Assembly (NCBI GenBank): GCA_025357875.1
Contig: JANYLK010000057.1
Location: 1 to 35,652 of the forward strand
Origin: Granulicella sp.
GTDB taxonomy: Bacteria; Acidobacteriota; Terriglobia; Terriglobales; Acidobacteriaceae
Reading direction: 5' to 3'
Length of the DNA: 35,652 bases
Both the position numbers and the translations under genes were made by a program. Under the pieces are notes generated by a model. The model searched no databases. It saw nothing but the letters and a program-made list of their open reading frames with translations, and was not told where the DNA came from. Shown one piece after another: positions 21,054 through 29,469 of this stretch. Numbering within the stretch: the stretch's first letter is position 1; each line of letters opens with the position of its first letter.

Positions 21054-21592
21054 CGAACGGTAAGGCAGGATTGACCGGTGGTCGAAGTCCTTTGCGGCCC
21101 AACGGCGGCGGAGATTCGGTGCCGCCCGGTCCTGCGGCCAGAAGACAGAATGGCTATTGGCGGTCCCATTGCCAGTTGCTGAAGTTCTGACGGAGTTTGC
21201 TTTTAAGCAACAAATCATGAGAGGACACGACATCATTGTGCGTTTCGGGCTCAGCAGTCTGCCAGTCCGCCACAAACAGCGCCTCGGCATTGGGATGATG
21301 CGGGATGGATCCGAAGATCATTGCTTATCCATCGCAGTCGAGGCTTGGGATGCAGATGCCCGGAACTCAGGTTGCGCGTAACGAATATCCAAACCTCCTG
21401 TTACTCCGCATTGATTTGACGAGCGTCAAACTGCAAGCTGCACCGAGCCAGTGGCCTAGCTTCGGCCTGAATGCTATTTCCACTCACTGGCCCAAGTTTG
21501 AGCTACTACCCGTCCAAGAGCGGTGTGCAGGTAATACCGCCCTATGCCGCGAAGTAAGTTCATTTTGACCAATGGGCGCGGCTGAACCTGCG
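21054..21592. other. Gene-free stretch upstream of the his leader
   Basis: Several short frames are open on both strands (for example 21305-21568 plus), but none has a ribosome-binding site or a family I recognise. It probably holds decayed sequence and the distal his promoter region. Confidence 0.45.
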
Positions 21593-21622
21593 TTGACAAA
21601 GGGATTAGGCGAGGGGTAACCT
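21593..21622 (+). promoter_or_regulatory. Possible his operon promoter
   Basis: TTGACA at 21593-21598 is a perfect -35. The best -10 is weak (TAACCT at 21617-21622, 18-base spacing). If used, transcription would start about 21628-21630, right at the leader ATG, so the leader peptide might be translated from a nearly leaderless mRNA. Confidence 0.35.
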
Positions 21623-21630
21623 TGGTCAAG

Positions 21631-21714
21631 ATGAACTTTTCGATGCAGCATCACGGACACCACCATCATCATGCGCATAGCGTGTTGGCGGCTGTGTCCG
21701 GTGCGGCGAGATAG
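21631..21714 (+). CDS. hisL: Histidine operon leader peptide
   Basis: 27 codons, ATG 21631 to TAG 21712-21714, reading MNFSMQHHGHHHHHAHSV and then LAAVSGAAR. Eight of the 27 residues are His (positions 7, 8, 10-14, 16). It precedes a GC-rich terminator-like hairpin and the first his gene, hisI. In enterobacterial his operons, a His-rich leader peptide senses charged tRNA-His: ribosome stalling at the His codons prevents terminator formation. The placement and composition here fit that role. The Shine-Dalgarno is poor (GAGGGG 14 bases upstream), so translation may be leaderless or start at the second ATG (21643), which keeps all His codons. Confidence 0.85.
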   Translation: MNFSMQHHGHHHHHAHSVLAAVSGAAR

Positions 21715-21773
21715 CAAAAGCACACCAGGATTTCACAAGGCCCGCTGACGCGCATACCGCGAGCGGGCCTTTT
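21652..21773 (+). promoter_or_regulatory. His attenuator: mutually exclusive RNA pairings
   Basis: Segment 1 is CACGGACAC (21652-21660, inside the His codons). Segment 2 is GTGTCCGGTG (21694-21703); 1:2 pair over nine base pairs with one bulged G. Segment 2 also overlaps GCGGCTGTG (21688-21696), which can pair with segment 3, CACAAGGCCCGC (21734-21745), through GCGG/CCGC and TGTG/CACA with an internal bulge. Segment 3 contains the left arm of the terminator, so 2:3 pairing excludes termination. Ribosome stalling at His codons would cover segment 1 and favour 2:3. The pairings were worked out by hand, and the 2:3 helix is the weakest part. Confidence 0.65.
21737..21773 (+). terminator. Rho-independent terminator (attenuator 3:4 hairpin)
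   Basis: AAGGCCCGCT (21737-21746) pairs perfectly with AGCGGGCCTT (21762-21771) around a 15-base loop that can itself add CGC/GCG pairs. It is followed by a short U tract (TTTTCTCT). It lies 22 bases after the leader stop codon and about 115 bases before hisI. Confidence 0.78.
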
Positions 21774-21831
21774 CTCTGCGCGCAGGTAGATGCGGCCATC
21801 GAGCGAGAAAAAGGCGAACGACGGAGAATTT

Positions 21832-21853
21832 GATCCCTGCGGATCAGAATGAC
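21832..21853. repeat. Short family A-like repeat between attenuator and hisI
   Basis: GATCCCTGCGGATCAGAATG then AC: a small inverted repeat (GATCC...GGATC) with the family tail AGAATGAC. It lies in the hisI 5' untranslated region, about 37 bases before the start codon. Confidence 0.5.
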
Positions 21854-21889
21854 GAAATTGGTAGAGATCACTTGAAAGAGAGAGACACT

Positions 21890-22249
21890 ATGGAAGCAGT
21901 AAATGCACCAACAATTGACTTTGCAAAGATGGATGGGTTGGTACCCGGAATTGTGCAGGACGCAAAGACGGGCGAGATGCTGATGCTCGGTTTCCTCAAC
22001 GAGATCAGCTACCAGAAGACGCTGGAGTCGGGCTTTGTGACGTTCTGGAGCAGGACTCGATCGAAGCTTTGGATGAAGGGCGAGACCAGCGGTAACCGGT
22101 TGCGTGTAATCACGGCGGCTACCGATTGCGATAACGACACGCTGTTGTTCCGGGTTGAGGTCGAGGGCGATGGACTGGTTTGCCATGAGGGCACCGTGAG
22201 CTGCTTTACGAAACCAATTTCGGTTACAAATTCTGTGGGGACGAAATAA
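21890..22249 (+). CDS. hisI: Phosphoribosyl-AMP cyclohydrolase
   Basis: 119 residues from ATG 21890, preceded by AAAGAGAGAG. It catalyses the third step of histidine synthesis, opening the purine ring of phosphoribosyl-AMP. Family signatures: [40 protein letters not shown], and the metal-binding pattern with DCDNDTLL followed by CHEGTVSCF near the C-terminus. It is the stand-alone cyclohydrolase: no HisE (pyrophosphohydrolase) domain is fused, and no hisE gene is in the window. Its TAA overlaps the hisG ATG by one base, indicating coupling. It is the first structural gene after the attenuator. Confidence 0.95.
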
Positions 22250-23124
22250 TGACGACGAAACTGAAGCTTGGAATTCCGAAGGGTAGTTTGCAGGATGCGA
22301 CGATTGCGTTGTTCGAGCGCGCGGGCTGGCGGATTTCGGCAAGTGGACGCAGCTACTTCCCCGCGATCGACGATGATGAGATCGAGTGCATGCTGGTTCG
22401 CGCGCAGGAGATGGCTCGCTACGTGGAAAAAGGCGCGCTGGATGCGGGTTTGACCGGCAATGATTGGGTGCAGGAGAACCAGACAGATGTGGAGTATGTC
22501 ACCAGTCTCACGTATTCGAAGGTGAGCCGGCAAAAGGTTAAGTGGGTGCTTTGCGTGCCGGAGGATTCGCCGTTTCAGAAGCCGGAGGATCTTGCAGGTA
22601 AGGTGATTGCGACGGAGTTGGTGGAGTTTACGAAGCGCTATTTTGCTGCGAAGAATATCCCGGTTAAGGTTGAGTTTAGCTGGGGCGCAACTGAAGTGAA
22701 GCCGCCTACGCTGGCCGACGCGATTGTCGAGGTGACCGAGACGGGTTCAAGTCTGCGGGCGAATCGACTGCGGATTATCGAGACGCTGATGGAGTCGGAG
22801 ACGCAGTTGATTGCGAATAAGGCCGCATACAAGGACTTGTGGAAGCGGAACAAGATCGAGAATATTTCGCTGATGCTGAATGCGGCGATTGCGGCGCAGG
22901 GACGTGTCGGCCTGATGTTGAATGCGCCGAAGGACAAGCTGGATTCGATTGTTGCGGAGCTGCCGGCATTAAATTTCCCCACGATTTCGCATCTAAGCGA
23001 TCCGGCGTGGGTAGCGCTGAATACGATTCTGGATGAGGTTGTAGTGCGCGATGTGATTCCGAAACTGAAGGCTGCGGGCGCAACAGGAATCGTGGAGTAT
23101 CCGCTGAGCAAGGTTGTTTTGTAG
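22249..23124 (+). CDS. hisG: ATP phosphoribosyltransferase, long form
   Basis: 291 residues. The first committed step: condenses ATP with PRPP. The length and the C-terminal part ([20 protein letters not shown] to [15 protein letters not shown], about 210-291) indicate the long HisG_L form with its own regulatory domain, so no HisZ is needed and direct feedback inhibition by histidine is expected. Catalytic part: [20 protein letters not shown] near the start, [16 protein letters not shown] (about 62-77), and the PRPP loop [20 protein letters not shown] (about 156-175). It overlaps hisI by one base and is followed by hisD after ten bases. Confidence 0.96.
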
Positions 23125-23134
23125 GGAGTAAGTC

Positions 23135-24394
23135 ATGAGGCTGGTGAAGACATTTGGACGGGGTAGGTCGGCCGCGGAGGCTCTGATTGCGGCGCTCGAG
23201 CAGCGTGGCGAGCTTAACACGTCGAAGGTTGAGAAGATTGTGACTGATATCGTTACAGATGTCAGGCGGCGTGGCGATTTGGGATTGCGGAGGTATGCGG
23301 CGAAGTTCGACGGGCTGCAATCGGGTACAGAGTTGCTGGTTTCGCCTGAAGAGATGAAGGTTGCATGGGACGCAACGGCACCGAGGTTGCAGGCGGCGAT
23401 GAAGGCGGCTCAGGCTAACATTCGTGCGTTTGCCGAGGCTCAGAAGCCGAAGGAGTGGACGATTTCTCCTCTAGCGGGCGTGACGACGGGGCAGATTGTG
23501 CGGTCTTTGGAGAGTGTCGGATGTTATGTACCCGGCGGGCGATATCCGCTGCCTTCGACGCTGCTGATGACAGTGACGCCGGCCCAGGTGGCGGGGGTGG
23601 AGCGGATTGTGGTGTGCTCGCCTAAACCTGCGCGGGAGACGATGGCTGCGGCCTGGATTGCGGGCGTGACCGAGTTCTATCGTGTGGGTGGGGCGCAGGC
23701 GATTGCTGCGATGGCGTATGGGACGCAGACGATCGCGCGGGTGAACAAGATTGTCGGGCCTGGGAATTTGTTTGTGACGGCGGCGAAGGTAATGGTGTCG
23801 CAGGCGTGCGGGATCGATATGCCGGCGGGACCGACGGAGATTGTGGTCACGAGCGAGAGCGGCGATGCCGCGGGAATTGCGGCTGATCTGGTCGCGCAGG
23901 CGGAACATGATCCTGAGGCACTAGCGGTGCTGATTACGAGCAATACGGTGCTCGCGGAGGCCGTAAAGGTCGAGGTGAAGGCGCAAGCGAAGGGAAATCT
24001 GATCGCGATGCTGTCGCTGGCAGCGCACGGGTGCATATTTGTGACTGAATCGGTTGCAGAAGCGCAGGCGCTAACCAATCGGTTGGCTCCGGAGCACTTG
24101 ACCGTAGATGCGAAGGCGGATTTGAAGTGGGTGAAAAATGCGGGATCTGTGTTCGTTGGGGCGTATGCGCCGCAGTCGATGGGGGACTACATCTCCGGTC
24201 CGAACCATGTGCTGCCGACGGGGCGCGTGGGGCGCGTGCGCGGCGGGCTGAGTGTAATGGATTTCGTGAAGGTGATTACGGTGCAGCGATACACACGCAA
24301 GGGACTGTGGGCGATGGGACCACATGCGATTGCGCTGGCCGAGGCGGAAGGATTAAAGGGGCATGCGGATAGCGTGCGCGTGAGGATGCGATGA
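23135..24394 (+). CDS. hisD: Histidinol dehydrogenase
   Basis: 419 residues, a usual length. It carries out the last two steps, oxidising L-histidinol to histidine with NAD. Zinc ligands by family position: Gln255 and His258 in VAQAEHDPEALAVL, Asp351 in PQSMGDYISGPNHVLPTG, His410 in GLKGHADSVRVR. The catalytic pair Glu320-His321 is in RLAPEHLTV. The signature GPGNLFVTAAKVMV followed by GIDMPAGPTEIVV (about 208-238) is intact. The stop overlaps the hisC start by four bases (ATGA). No defects seen. Confidence 0.97.
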   Translation: MRLVKTFGRGRSAAEALIAALEQRGELNTSKVEKIVTDIVTDVRRRGDLGLRRYAAKFDGLQSGTELLVSPEEMKVAWDATAPRLQAAMKAAQANIRAFAEAQKPKEWTISPLAGVTTGQIVRSLESVGCYVPGGRYPLPSTLLMTVTPAQVAGVERIVVCSPKPARETMAAAWIAGVTEFYRVGGAQAIAAMAYGTQTIARVNKIVGPGNLFVTAAKVMVSQACGIDMPAGPTEIVVTSESGDAAGIAADLVAQAEHDPEALAVLITSNTVLAEAVKVEVKAQAKGNLIAMLSLAAHGCIFVTESVAEAQALTNRLAPEHLTVDAKADLKWVKNAGSVFVGAYAPQSMGDYISGPNHVLPTGRVGRVRGGLSVMDFVKVITVQRYTRKGLWAMGPHAIALAEAEGLKGHADSVRVRMR

Positions 24395-25566
24395 CATCTG
24401 CTACTAAAAGTTTTACAAAACAAGCTGCCGCAAAGAAAAATGTAACGAAAATAGTGGCAAGGCGCGCCGTGCTGGCGATGCCGGAGTACCATCCTCCACT
24501 GGCTGGTCGGGATGCGTTACGGCTGGACTTCAACGAGAACACGCTGGCGGCGTCGCCGAAGGTAATTGAGCGATTAAAGCAGACGACTGCGGAGGGGCTG
24601 ACCAAATATCCGGAGCGCGAAGGCGTGGAGAAGATTGCTGCGGCGCACTTTGGATTGCAGCCCGAGCAAGTGGTGTTGACGAATGGTGTGGATGAAGCGA
24701 TTCACCTGCTGTGCGCGGCGTTTCTGGAGGAGGAGGACGAAGCGCTGATCCAGACGCCCACGTTCTTCATGTATGAGGTCAGCGCGGGGATGATGACGGC
24801 GCGCGTGAAGAAGGTGCAGGCGGACACTTCACTGGAGTTTCCCTATGAGCGATTTCTGGCGGGGATGACGCCGCGGACGAAGCTGATCATGGTGGCGTCG
24901 CCGAACAATCCCACGGGAGCGGTGGTGAGCCGGGAACATCTGCTGGGGATCTGCGCGGCGGCTCCGCAGGCGGTGGTGATGGTGGATGAGGCGTACTTTC
25001 ATTTCTTCGGCGAGACGGTGATGGAGGATGTTGAACGCGTGCCGAACCTGATTGTTGCGCGGACGTTTTCGAAGGCGTACGGACTGGCAAATCTGCGCAT
25101 CGGGATGCTCGCTGGTAACGCGGAGCTGATGAAGTATGTGCGCAAGGTGAGTTCGCCTTACAACGTGAATGGTGTGGCGCTGGATTGTCTGCCGGTCGCG
25201 TTGGCTGACGATGCGTATGTGCAGTGGTACGCGGAGCAGGTGCATGCAGGGCGGGTGCGGATGATGGATGGATTACGGGAGTTGGGTGTGGACTTCTTTC
25301 CGAGTCATGCGAATTTTGTCTTGTTGAAGATAGGCGCGAAGCATGCGGAGTTGGTGACAGCGATGCGGGCGCATGGCGTGTTGCTGCGGGATCGCTCGGC
25401 TGATCCGGGGTGCGATGGGTATGTGCGGATTACGATTGGCGTGGACGAGCATGTCACGCGTGGATTAGCGGCGTTGAAGGCGTCGCTGACGGAGATTGGA
25501 TGGAGACCCAGCGAAGGTTTAGCGGTGCAGACTGAGACTGATAAAGGAGGGCGCGAGTATGAGTGA
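24391..25566 (+). CDS. hisC: Histidinol-phosphate aminotransferase
   Basis: 391 residues. PLP-dependent class I/II aminotransferase converting imidazole acetol phosphate and glutamate to histidinol phosphate. Family blocks: LRLDFNENTLAASPKVIERL (43-62), LTNGVDEAIHLLCAAFLEEE (96-115), MVASPNNPTGAVVS (167-180), VMVDEAYFHFFGE (196-208) and ARTFSKAYGLANLRIGM (223-239), with Lys228 as the PLP lysine. The first 30 residues are a Lys/Thr/Ala-rich extension before the conserved part (VLAMPEYHPPLAGRDALRLD). It overlaps hisD by four bases and the following microprotein by eight bases. Confidence 0.96.
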   Translation: MTSATKSFTKQAAAKKNVTKIVARRAVLAMPEYHPPLAGRDALRLDFNENTLAASPKVIERLKQTTAEGLTKYPEREGVEKIAAAHFGLQPEQVVLTNGVDEAIHLLCAAFLEEEDEALIQTPTFFMYEVSAGMMTARVKKVQADTSLEFPYERFLAGMTPRTKLIMVASPNNPTGAVVSREHLLGICAAAPQAVVMVDEAYFHFFGETVMEDVERVPNLIVARTFSKAYGLANLRIGMLAGNAELMKYVRKVSSPYNVNGVALDCLPVALADDAYVQWYAEQVHAGRVRMMDGLRELGVDFFPSHANFVLLKIGAKHAELVTAMRAHGVLLRDRSADPGCDGYVRITIGVDEHVTRGLAALKASLTEIGWRPSEGLAVQTETDKGGREYE

Positions 25567-25744
25567 TCTGAGTCCGCAGCGGAGGAAGGTTGTGATCTTG
25601 TGTGCCGCGATAGGGTCCACGGGCGGAGCGTCGGTCCTGCTAAAGGGGCACGATTTTCTGCGTGGTGCGCTGGTCGGCTTTATGCTCGTGATGTTGGTTT
25701 ACGCGATTACACAGTTTGTGAAGTTGAAGAGATCGGGGCTATGA
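25559..25744 (+). CDS. Membrane microprotein embedded in the his operon
   Basis: 61 residues with an excellent AAAGGAGGG before ATG 25559. Its start overlaps the end of hisC by eight bases and its stop overlaps the hisB start by four (ATGA). N-terminus [20 protein letters not shown] is basic; a glycine/leucine stretch ([19 protein letters not shown]) is followed by a clear transmembrane segment ([20 protein letters not shown], about 37-56) and a basic tail. One or two membrane helices are likely. I recognise no family. Tight coupling on both sides makes it very likely a real gene. Confidence 0.78.
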
Positions 25745-26340
25745 GCGATCTGGTGCGGACAGGAACGGTGAATCGCGATACGACGGAGACGCAGATTGCG
25801 CTGACGTTGACGATCGATGGGCAGGGCTTGTATTCCGTGACGACGGGGATACGTTTTTTTGATCACATGCTGGAGTTGTTTACGCGGCATGGCGGGTTTG
25901 ATCTGACGCTGTCATGCAAAGGCGATTTGGACGTCGATCAGCACCATACTGTCGAGGATGTTGGGATTGCGCTGGGTGAGGCGTTTGGGATTGCGCTGGG
26001 CGATAAGAAGGGCATTATGCGCGCCGGTTATTTTGTGATGGCGATGGATGAGACGCTTGCGGTGGCTGCTGTGGATCTGAGCGGGCGTGTTGCTTACGTG
26101 GTTGATGACCAGGTTACCGTGCCGCTGGTTGGGGATTTTCAGACTGAGTTGGTGGCGGATTTCTTTGATGGATTTGCGCGTGGCGCGAAGGCGAATGTGC
26201 ATGTGAAGACGATGTATGGGCGGAGTAATCATCATAAGATCGAAGCGATCTTCAAGGCATTTGCGCGGGCTATGCGCGGGGCTTGTAGTCGGGATGAGCG
26301 GATGCGGGAGATGCTGCCGAGTACGAAAGGATTGTTGTGA
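25741..26340 (+). CDS. hisB: Imidazoleglycerol-phosphate dehydratase
   Basis: 199 residues, the monofunctional form without the histidinol-phosphatase domain found in E. coli HisB. It dehydrates IGP to imidazole acetol phosphate. The manganese-binding His/Glu clusters are present: [17 protein letters not shown] (39-55), [16 protein letters not shown] (66-81, H68 H69 E72) and [20 protein letters not shown] near the C-terminus. The expected ending, LPSTKGLL, is intact. It overlaps the upstream microprotein by four bases. Its own TGA overlaps a downstream GTG (26337) that opens a small broken ORF. A separate histidinol-phosphate phosphatase must be encoded elsewhere. Confidence 0.96.
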
Positions 26341-26570
26341 GTAAATTCACAATACCTCGAGAGAAAAAGCTCGCTGGTCTCGCCCTGGATAGCCGGAATG
26401 TCTATGGCGAGAATGACAAAGCGAGTCGCAAACGAATACCTCGCGCCAAACAAGAGGGTCACCAAGCGCTGCGACGTGCCGCAAAGCAGCCTCTTTAGAA
26501 CATGGCCTCCGCACTCGATGAGGACGATTTTGGAATACAAGACAACTGGAGACCGGCAGGCGCTGACTAG
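26337..26570 (+). pseudogene. Small ORF between hisB and hisH, interrupted by an in-frame amber codon
   Basis: A GTG at 26337 overlaps the hisB stop (GTGA) and opens 53 codons: [52 protein letters not shown], then TAG (26496-26498). The same frame resumes directly with ATG 26502: MASALDEDDFGIQDNWRPAG, AD, TAG. Read through, this is a highly charged 77-residue protein. Coupled position and Lys/Arg-rich then acidic composition suggest a real small protein that has acquired a stop. Alternatives are two tiny genes or amber readthrough. A frame-shifted ORF (26398-26583) overlaps it and ends at the hisH start. I recognise no family with certainty. Confidence 0.5.
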
Positions 26571-26579
26571 GAAACGCAA

Positions 26580-27215
26580 ATGATCGCTGTCATCGATTAC
26601 AAAGCGGGAAATTTGACTAGCGTGGTGAAGGCGCTCAAGTTTCTAGATGCGCGGGATGTGGTGGTGACGCAGTCGCCGGAGGATGTGTTGCGGGCGGACA
26701 AGATCGTGCTGCCGGGAGTGGGACATTTTCAGTCGACGCAGTTGCTGAAGGATTTGGGATTGACTGAGGCGGTGCGCGAGGCGGTTGCTAAAGGTACGCC
26801 GTTTCTGGGGATTTGTGTGGGGTTGCAGTGGCTGTATGAGGGGTCGACTGAGGCTCCGGAGACGGATGGGTTGTGTGCATTTTCTTCGCAGTGCGAGCGG
26901 TTTCCGGCGAAAGAGATTAAGCAAATCAATGGAAAGGAAATTGCCGTGGAGTTGAAGTCGCCGCATGTGGGCTGGAATTCACTGGAGCAGATTCGGCCGG
27001 ATTCCCGACTGTTGCGTGGGGTGGCGGATGGAGCATTCGTTTATTTCACACACTCGTGGCGGGCTCCGGTTTCTCACGATACTGCGGCGGTTACAAATTA
27101 TGGGGGGGCGTTTACGGCGGCGGTGGAGCGTGGGAATGTGATGGGCGTGCAGTTCCATCCGGAGAAGTCGGCTGAGGTTGGGTTGCGGGTGTTGCAGAAT
27201 TTTGTGGAGTTGTGA
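26580..27215 (+). CDS. hisH: Imidazole glycerol phosphate synthase, glutaminase subunit
   Basis: 211 residues. Class I glutamine amidotransferase that feeds ammonia to HisF. The triad is complete: Cys79 in FLGICVGLQWLYEG, His193 and Glu195 in VQFHPEKS. Other family blocks: IAVIDYKAGNLTSVVKALKF at the start, KIVLPGVGHF with the oxyanion region (41-50), HVGWNSLEQIR (129-139) and FVYFTHSWRAP (153-163). ATG 26580 is preceded by AGGAAAC. It is followed by a 126-base gap carrying a family A repeat before hisF, although the two proteins form one complex. Confidence 0.96.
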   Translation: MIAVIDYKAGNLTSVVKALKFLDARDVVVTQSPEDVLRADKIVLPGVGHFQSTQLLKDLGLTEAVREAVAKGTPFLGICVGLQWLYEGSTEAPETDGLCAFSSQCERFPAKEIKQINGKEIAVELKSPHVGWNSLEQIRPDSRLLRGVADGAFVYFTHSWRAPVSHDTAAVTNYGGAFTAAVERGNVMGVQFHPEKSAEVGLRVLQNFVEL

Positions 27216-27271
27216 AGGAAGGCTTGTCCCGTGGGCTAATACCCGAACCTATCTCAGAGCAAAAGCAACGG

Positions 27272-27316
27272 CGAAATGCGGGGATTCTTTGCTACGCCCC
27301 TGAATGACAAACAATG
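27272..27316. repeat. Family A repeat between hisH and hisF
   Basis: CGAAATGCGGGGATTCTTTG, then CCCCTGAATGACAAACAATG. It lies about 25 bases before the hisF start. The first 19 bases are identical to the copy at 13601. Confidence 0.68.
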
Positions 27317-27341
27317 AGGGTAGTGAGCAAGTGAGGTTAGA

Positions 27342-28112
27342 GTGCTGACGAAGCGGATTATTGCTTGTTTGGATGTGCGGGGTGGGCGGGTGGTGAAGGG
27401 TGTGCAGTTCGTCGATATCGTCGATGCGGGCGATCCGGCGGAGTTGGCGCATCGTCATGCGGCGGCGGGGGCGGATGAGATTGTGCTGCTCGATATAACC
27501 GCTACGCATGAGGGACGCGGGACATTGCTGGAGACGGTGAGGCGGGCGGCGGCGAAGCTGTTTGTGCCGTTCACCGTGGGCGGCGGGATCGGATCGGCGG
27601 AGGATGCGGCGGCGGTGTTCGATGCGGGGGCGGATAAGGTAAGCATTAATTCTGCGGCGATCGCTCGGCCGGAGTTGATTGGCGAGATTGGCGCGAGCTT
27701 TGGAGCGCAGGCGGTAATTGTGGCGATCGACGCCAGGCGTGGTGCGCGCGGGGTGGAAGATGCGGAGGTTTATGTCAGCGGGGGTAGGAAGGCTACGGGG
27801 TTGCGTGTGGTGGAGTGGGCGTTGGAGGCGGAGGCGCGGGGTGCGGGCGAGATTCTGCTGACTTCGATGGACACGGATGGGATGCGTGGGGGGTTTGATT
27901 GCGAGTTGACTGCAGCGGTGAGTTCGGCGGTGCAGATTCCGGTGATTGCTTCGGGTGGTGCGGGGAGCGCGGAACATTTTGCGGAAGTATTTGGGCGGGG
28001 TAAGGCTGACGCGGCGCTGGCGGCTAGCATCTTTCATTTTGGCGTTACGGATTCGCGGGAGTTGAAGGGGAGGCTGCAGCAGGCGGGCGTGAGTGTGCGG
28101 CTGCCTTGTTGA
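27342..28112 (+). CDS. hisF: Imidazole glycerol phosphate synthase, cyclase subunit
   Basis: 256 residues from a GTG start with GAGG nearby. It joins PRFAR with ammonia from HisH to give IGP and AICAR. A (beta/alpha)8 barrel with both catalytic aspartates: Asp11 in [19 protein letters not shown] and Asp130 in [11 protein letters not shown]. Phosphate-binding loops: [20 protein letters not shown] (77-96), [16 protein letters not shown] and [18 protein letters not shown]. The length is normal. The GTG start and the repeat just upstream may give it lower translation than the coupled genes upstream. Confidence 0.96.
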
Positions 28113-28244
28113 AGGCTTCGCGCCAGGCGTTGATTCATGCGCGCTTCATCGGGAGGTGCGATGGTTGTTTTGCACCTTGGTCCCGGGATCGAAGAGTTGG
28201 AACTGGGGGCATTGTGTTGTCTATACTTGCAGCTATCGACACTT

Positions 28245-28256
28245 GTAGATATCTAC
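28245..28256. promoter_or_regulatory. Operator-like palindrome upstream of the hisF-hisA unknown gene
   Basis: GTAGATATCTAC is a perfect 12-base palindrome 35 bases before the 128-residue ORF, in a locally AT-richer patch (TTGTCTATACTTGCAGC just upstream). It may mark an internal promoter or operator in the his operon. Confidence 0.35.
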
Positions 28257-28291
28257 GGATCGAAATTCTGGCCGAGGATTAAGGAGAGTGG

Positions 28292-28678
28292 ATGCTGGAC
28301 GTTCTGCAATTGCGCATTCACCTCGACGTATTTGATCGATTGCGATTGTGCCAGGCCGTGCTGCGGAGCGATTGCCATGCGGCGTTTACGGTCACGGGCA
28401 TGCAATCCATCTGGCCGCTGGCGAGTTGGGATGAGACTTCGCTCGTGGAACAGATCAACGTGCGCGGCTGGTTCCCATTGCTGGACCAGATGACGGATGA
28501 ATTTCTGCTTTGGCACCCGCAGGGTGGATGCTTCTTCGTGCATCGGGACAGGGTCGTGTACCGGGTGGCGGAGAGCGATTCGCGCGGCGTGCTGTTCATG
28601 CAGCTAGAGTTGGATCGACCGATAGTGGTGGTGCCAAGGCGGCCGGCGGATTCGCGTCGGGCGTATTCGCAGCCTTGA
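28292..28678 (+). CDS. Conserved-looking hypothetical protein between hisF and hisA
   Basis: 128 residues with a strong AAGGAGAG before ATG 28292. No signal peptide or membrane segment. The sequence is well-mixed, with several Trp and Cys residues: RIHLDVFDRLRLCQAVLRSD, SIWPLASWDETSLVEQINVR, GWFPLLDQMTDEFLLWHPQG, GCFFVHRDRVVYRVAESDSR, ELDRPIVVVPRR. The hydrophobic/charged alternation suggests a folded alpha/beta cytosolic protein. I do not recognise the family. Its place inside the his operon, 23 bases before hisA, points to co-expression with the pathway, but a shared function is only inference. Confidence 0.75.
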   Translation: MLDVLQLRIHLDVFDRLRLCQAVLRSDCHAAFTVTGMQSIWPLASWDETSLVEQINVRGWFPLLDQMTDEFLLWHPQGGCFFVHRDRVVYRVAESDSRGVLFMQLELDRPIVVVPRRPADSRRAYSQP

Positions 28679-28701
28679 CGACTGGCTGAGACAATAGAAG
28701 C

Positions 28702-29469
28702 ATGTTGATTCCTTCGATCGATTTGATGGGTGGGCGGATTGTGCAGCTCGTTCAGGGCGAAAAGCTGAAGCTAGCGTTCGACGATTTTGAATACTGGATT
28801 GAGCGGTTTTCGAAGTATCCACTGGTACAACTTATCGATCTGGATGCGGCGATGCGGCAGGGTGAGAATCGCGCGCTGATCGAGATGATTTGTGGGCGGC
28901 TGCCGTGCCAGGTGGGTGGTGGGTTGAAGACGGCGGAGGATGGGCGGCGACTGCTGGATGCGGGGGCAAAACGGGTTATCTATGGGTCCAGTTTGTTTGG
29001 GGTGGATGAGGAAGGATCCCACTCATCGCTTGAAGCCGCGATGAATGGGGCACCCGGGATTTCTGGGGCACCCGAGGTGGTGGCCAAGCGGCGGCACAAG
29101 GTGATTCGGCTAGAGTTTGCGGAGGAGTTGAAGCGGGTGCTGGGGGAGGAGGCGCTTTGCTTCTCGGTGGATACGAAGGGTGGGCGGGTCGCGGTGAAGG
29201 GGTGGAAGGATTCCGTCGATTTGACGCCTGAGGAGGCGGTGACCTGGCTGGAGGATTCTTGCGCGGCGTTCCTGTATACGCATGTGGATACGGAGGGGAC
29301 GATGCAAGGGTTCCCGCTGGATGTGGCGGCGGTGCTGCGCGCTTGCACGGCGAAGCAATTGATTGTGGCAGGAGGCATCAAAGAAAGAGCAGAGGTTGAT
29401 GCGCTGAATGCGATGGGCGTGGATGCGGTGGCGGGGATGGCGGTTTATTCTGGCGCGATGGAGGCTTGA
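28702..29469 (+). CDS. hisA: HisA-type ProFAR isomerase carrying a repeat-derived insertion
   Basis: 255 residues. It isomerises ProFAR to PRFAR, a (beta/alpha)8 barrel like HisF. Core motifs: LIPSIDLMGGRIVQLVQGEK at the start (catalytic Asp7), QLIDLDAAMRQGENRALIEM (43-62), CQVGGGLKTAEDGRRLLDAG (69-88), LCFSVDTKGGRVAVKGW (152-168, second catalytic Asp157), AAFLYTHVDTEGTMQGFPLD (188-207), LIVAGGIKERAEVDALNAMG (220-239). Residues 106-126 (SHSSLEAAMNGAPGISGAPE and on) are a translated family B repeat lying in a loop after GSSLFGVD. The reading frame and all core motifs survive, so the protein is probably functional. It is the last gene of the operon. Confidence 0.92.
   Translation: MLIPSIDLMGGRIVQLVQGEKLKLAFDDFEYWIERFSKYPLVQLIDLDAAMRQGENRALIEMICGRLPCQVGGGLKTAEDGRRLLDAGAKRVIYGSSLFGVDEEGSHSSLEAAMNGAPGISGAPEVVAKRRHKVIRLEFAEELKRVLGEEALCFSVDTKGGRVAVKGWKDSVDLTPEEAVTWLEDSCAAFLYTHVDTEGTMQGFPLDVAAVLRACTAKQLIVAGGIKERAEVDALNAMGVDAVAGMAVYSGAMEA
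29017..29077. repeat. Family B palindromic repeat inside hisA
   Basis: Left arm CCCACTCATCGC (29018-29029) and right arm GCGATGAATGGG (29038-29049) pair at 11 of 12 positions. The family tail GGGGCACCCG follows, and a second GGGGCACCCG lies 15 bases further on. It is translated in frame as part of HisA. Confidence 0.8.

Follow-up and report, generated by a model that had tools for sequence, protein, structure and literature searches.

Ribosome-mediated attenuation in response to histidine is well known in enterobacteria, and groups that study attenuation have published taxon-wide lists of attenuators. His attenuators have also been predicted in some Firmicutes, according to the available passages of two papers (PMC9413887; PMC2965389); in the second of these, as far as those passages go, Naville and Gautheret report almost no predicted Acidobacteria attenuators with an associated function. 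Leader peptides encoded by leaderless mRNAs are described, in the portions of the sources at hand, for Streptomyces lividans (leuL, trpL, ilvL and others; PMC8079986) and for Sinorhizobium (trpL; PMC7298713), and part of another report gives predicted leaderless genes at 9.7-19.4% in 3/3 Acidobacteria genomes (PMC3160421). Among the open-access matches listed, no description was found of a His attenuator in Acidobacteriota or of a leaderless His attenuator; subscription journals lay mostly outside this search and earlier mentions of either are possible.

The window, which is the whole 35,652-nucleotide stretch of Granulicella DNA that was analysed, contains a his operon that is predicted, with a probability of roughly 0.9, to be controlled by a His-responsive, ribosome-mediated transcription attenuator. 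Based on NCBIfam matches, the operon reads hisI-hisG-hisD-hisC-hisB-hisH-hisF-hisA on the forward strand (21890-29469). The first structural gene, hisI (21890..22249), matches phosphoribosyl-AMP cyclohydrolase at 126 of 126 bits, exactly at the cut-off, and is followed by hisG to hisA (22249..29469), with hisA scoring under its curated cut-off (140.7 of 228.95 bits). A 128-codon ORF without an NCBIfam match lies between hisF and hisA (28292-28678). The nearest named relatives of HisI are from Acidobacteriaceae, and loci carrying HisI include those of cultured Terriglobus roseus DSM 18391 and of Edaphobacter and Granulicella strains.

Upstream of hisI on the same strand is the leader ORF hisL (21631..21714), which begins with the ATG at 21631, ends with the TAG at 21712-21714 and encodes MNFSMQHHGHHHHHAHSVLAAVSGAAR. 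As an earlier note on this DNA had reported, it has 27 codons of which eight specify His, and it is thus the short ORF rich in codons for the operon's own amino acid that is characteristic of an attenuator. The His codons are concentrated in codons 7-16 (21649..21678; HHGHHHHHAH), the third positions of which are the most variable in relatives. These relatives were drawn from 110 HisI-derived loci, 80 from named relatives and 30 from further genomes of the family, 10 of which are duplicates. A search of close relatives for a His run and a terminator, proposed in the earlier note, found both. Upstream of hisI, 109/110 loci have an ORF in which four or more His fall within 12 residues, and the sole exception (L079) has just 152 nt of upstream sequence. 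A terminator-like hairpin with trailing T's is present in 108/108 loci (98 once duplicates are removed), a count made without a shuffle control that leaves out L079 and L028, the latter having a leader with five His. In an alignment of 96 of the 98 leaders (A1), from which L059 and L078 were excluded because their start assignments are odd, 92/96 leaders have six to nine His. The His codons alternate between CAT and CAC while the residue is unchanged, and in pairwise comparisons over eight codon columns of the leader, seven of which are mostly His, 42% of third positions differ compared with 9% of first and 16% of second positions.

The RNA from 21631 to 21775 folds at -58.3 kcal/mol (z -3.24), which beats all 200 dinucleotide shuffles. 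Between the leader ORF and the first gene, where an attenuator has its intrinsic terminator, such a terminator occurs at 21737..21773 on the forward strand. It has a main stem of 10 bp (21737-21746 with 21762-21771), an inner helix and a U tract (TTTT, 21770-21773), in agreement with the ten-base-pair hairpin and short U tract described in the earlier note. The stem is interrupted, and a simple consensus scan of 21500-21950 returned no terminator-like sites. The competing antiterminator is a continuous 12-bp helix between a 5' arm at 21680..21691, located within the leader ORF just past the His run, and a 3' arm at 21742..21753 that overlaps the 5' arm and loop of the terminator, both on the forward strand. 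A different helix had been put forward for this pairing in the earlier note (21688-21696 with 21734-21745); that helix is not the best one and gave way to the 12-bp helix, which is the version kept in relatives. Cells of the 12-bp helix are paired 85.6% of the time over 96 relatives, compared with 30-45% when the partners are slid, and both sides have changed at three core pairs in 33, 16 and 6 of the 96 sequences. At the level of sequence, formation of this covarying helix excludes the terminator, as is expected of an antiterminator.

In the minimum-energy fold, the 5' arm of the antiterminator is engaged in a 1:2 hairpin (21648..21704, forward strand), the inner part of which pairs the His codons at 21663-21674 with the arm at 21680-21691. 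The earlier note had placed a 1:2 helix at 21652-21660 with 21694-21703, and a similar helix does exist, with different limits: the pairs are 21654-21660 with 21694-21700, extended by 21648-21651 with 21701-21704. The inner helices between His codons and arm are 87-96% paired in relatives, with changes on both sides, and the outer helix is just about 50% paired. A tree-based test for compensatory changes was underpowered, with few independent events and no single column significant among those listed. Outside the family, leaders pair better on average with their own terminator arm (-24.8 kcal/mol) than with the arms of other families (-20.5 kcal/mol); for 17/30 leaders the own arm is better than at least 90% of the foreign arms, and 6/30 pair worse with their own arm than with most foreign ones, in a comparison that left out L196, where no terminator was found. 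Conservation of the leader, synonymous change of its His codons and covariation of two exclusive structures together support the ribosome-mediated His attenuation that the earlier note had proposed.

Under the attenuation mechanism, RNA polymerase would start at the hisL AUG or no more than about 2 nt away, and a ribosome would load on the AUG at the very 5' end of the message, with no Shine-Dalgarno (SD) site. When charged tRNA-His is scarce, the ribosome would be expected to stall on the His codons. Since the arm at 21680-21691 pairs with the His codons, a ribosome parked there would free this terminator-blocking arm, which could then pair with 21742-21753 and block the terminator, so that RNA polymerase would continue into hisI. 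With ample His, the ribosome would reach the stop codon and depart, the His codons would refold onto the arm to give the 1:2 hairpin, and the terminator would form.

Folding with and without masking of the leader, which the earlier note had suggested as a check, was carried out and did not discriminate. In equilibrium folding of the full-length RNA, the terminator is at 0.95 or more in all 24 masking cases, and a shortened RNA adopts the antiterminator (0.87) with no ribosome in place; the switch must therefore be kinetic. The full-length E. coli his leader, when masked, likewise folds into its terminator at equilibrium. Equilibrium folding is therefore neutral on a kinetic switch.

Transcription of the leader probably begins at a promoter that did not figure in the earlier note. 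A -35-like box, TTGACA (21593..21598), and a -10-like box, TAACCT (21617..21622; form TAnnnT), lie on the forward strand, the latter 8 nt 5' of the ATG, and constitute the predicted hisL promoter. The TTGAC motif is common to relatives, occurring 35-45 nt 5' of the leader start in 98/98 family leaders (36-39 nt in 88/98), and TAnnnT ends 4-14 nt 5' of the start in 96/98, mostly at 8 or 9 nt. An SD-like 4-mer is absent from 95/98. The leader mRNA is predicted to be leaderless because the boxes lie at a near-fixed distance from the start and SD motifs are rare. In the part of the source consulted, -10 boxes of internal his promoters of C. glutamicum are placed 7 +/- 1 nt upstream (PMC3896937), and on that spacing the 5' end is expected to coincide with the hisL AUG or to lie about 2 nt from it at most, which corresponds to a predicted transcription start at about 21629-21631.

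Alternatively, the attenuator could be the same and its message not leaderless, with transcription starting further upstream, the boxes not being the promoter or not only that, and hisL being translated from an SD-poor site. Where a leader had several possible starts, the one nearest the expected distance to TTGAC was chosen, which leaves room for this arrangement, as do the agreement of the window's -10 box with TATAAT at only 3/6 positions and the lack of promoter-like sites in the consensus scan of 21500-21950. The chosen start is nonetheless ATG in 96/98 family leaders, and under tighter limits both boxes precede 92/98 leaders and 0/98 hisI starts, while of all ATGs in the 80 named loci, counted on both strands (13,766), 76 have them, leaders included. 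SD-like motifs follow the opposite pattern, being present in 3/98 leaders and at 74/98 hisI starts. Equal spacing is also seen outside the family, where among 32 leaders (20 from the class and 12 from the phylum) both boxes occur in 24, the -10 box in 30 and an SD-like motif in 1. An upstream start is considered unlikely, and a leaderless hisL mRNA is the prediction preferred here.

It is much less probable that hisL encodes a conserved His-rich small protein, for example one that binds metal, which has its own terminator and lies by chance before a separately promoted hisI. Conservation of the peptide does extend past the His run (as ...SVLAAVSG or ...MPADCHGL), 116 nt separate the terminator tail from hisI, and the SD-like motifs before most hisI starts (74/98) would suit independent expression of that gene. 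The residues after the His run, however, overlie the antiterminator arm, and this arm covaries with the terminator; no promoter-like site was found at 21773-21890 in the consensus scan. The terminator-like hairpin begins 21-45 nt past the leader stop in all 108 loci. Further evidence comes from R1, a covariance model built in this analysis. Among 150 sampled genomes of the family, hisI is present in 111 and R1 matches 105, all of which belong to the 111, so that the leader accompanies hisI in every R1-matching family genome. In three of the genomes with hisI and no R1 match (G016, G044, G087) a His leader is visible on reading, and in the others (G043, G051, G137) hisI is at or near a contig end. 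Control by a T-box, a riboswitch or a protein-bound attenuator in place of a translating ribosome is scarcely credible: histidine T-boxes do control his genes in other phyla according to the passages available (PMC9413887), but nothing in the window attains the gathering score of an Rfam family, no T-box is among the matches at the site up to E 10, and little besides the His-codon ORF and its pairing arms is transcribed ahead of the terminator.

Ribosome-mediated His attenuation of hisI appears to extend beyond the family. R1 matches were found in 188/299 class genomes at E 0.001 and in 76/297 genomes of the phylum sample at E 0.01. Twenty of the stronger class matches out of the 188 (E 7e-13 to 1e-6) were inspected; in 18/20 five or more His fall within 12 residues, the other two having four and three, and the next ORF has a HisI-like start, judged by the printed part, in 17/20. 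Among 20 inspected phylum matches (E 4e-10 to 2e-3), a His leader is present in 12 and absent from 8. Outside the class, hisI occurs in 107/159 genomes, from which 32 genomes of 28 families were taken, omitting f59 and f46, in which a leader had already been found. A His leader precedes hisI in 4/32 (L221-L224); a terminator was found by scan in three of these four, the boxes lie by eye at about the same spacing, and one of the starts is GTG. An ORF of at least 114 codons runs up to hisI in 24/28 of the genomes without a leader. Such an ORF is also found in two of the four leader-bearing genomes, and the position of hisI as other than the first gene is therefore no more than a likely reason for the absence of a leader. 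The attenuator appears to accompany operons in which hisI comes first and not to be universal in the phylum; verified cases span the class and several families of other classes, but not the whole phylum.

His-rich leaders also occur before genes other than hisI. Of the 12 phylum matches with a His leader, one has it before a HisG-like ORF (L189, genome G586) and another before a HisZ-like ORF (L196, genome G487), both ORFs having been named from reading; relocation of the leader, or more than one origin, is possible. Within the family, hisI is missing from 28/110 high-quality genomes. Of 15 tested hisI-negative family genomes, 14 also have no hisD match (G001, G004, G007, G010, G011, G014, G022, G023, G025, G042, G045, G049, G053 and G060), the exception being G048 with a match at 39% identity. 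Many of the genomes lacking both genes are >95% complete, and it is possible that they are histidine auxotrophs which have lost operon and attenuator together. For other amino acids, a simple script recognised no leaders 5' of pheA-, trpE-, leuA/HMGL- or ilvB-like genes in the same genome. A locus from another class (L200; G416:C34:41585-43900) has a leader-like ORF ending in ...WRYFYFSFFSIARGAGNAMV, followed by a terminator-like hairpin and an ORF that reads as prephenate-dehydratase-like, and is a candidate Phe/Tyr attenuator.

The proposed hisL attenuator supplies a function, a sequence model, a clear test and cultured carriers for one Acidobacteria attenuator. If its 5' ends are confirmed, it would offer a natural system, from a large phylum of soil bacteria, for studying how ribosome and RNA polymerase are coupled when the message is leaderless. 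A more tentative idea, which we consider rather doubtful at present, is that leaderless attenuation is old in Acidobacteriota: a 70S ribosome on the emerging 5' AUG might couple ribosome and polymerase without a Shine-Dalgarno sequence, and the promoter-to-AUG geometry might have stayed constant across several classes even as the leaders and hairpins around it diverged in sequence.

The attenuator shares with the enterobacterial his attenuator (hisL; RF00514) a short His-rich leader ORF, alternative hairpins and a terminator before the his operon. It differs in that the first gene is hisI, whereas in enterobacteria it is hisG, and in that its His codons are split by Gly/Ala (the E. coli hisL peptide, for comparison, is MTRVQFKHHHHHHHPD). 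Other differences are the location of the antiterminator arm inside the leader ORF, the predicted leaderless start and the lack of a match to RF00514, His_leader being absent from the seven weak Rfam matches at the site up to E 10. The attenuators predicted in Firmicutes likewise have a His leader peptide, a terminator and an antiterminator before his genes, whereas they belong to another phylum, have other sequences and carry three to five consecutive His codons, and the available passages of the papers mention no leaderless start (PMC9413887; PMC2965389). The leaders of Streptomyces and Sinorhizobium, as presented in the portions of the sources at hand, match the arrangement predicted for hisL, with an mRNA that begins at the start codon and continues into attenuator structures, though they respond to other amino acids in other phyla, and their leaderless starts are based on transcripts while that of hisL is predicted from promoter spacing (PMC8079986; PMC7298713).
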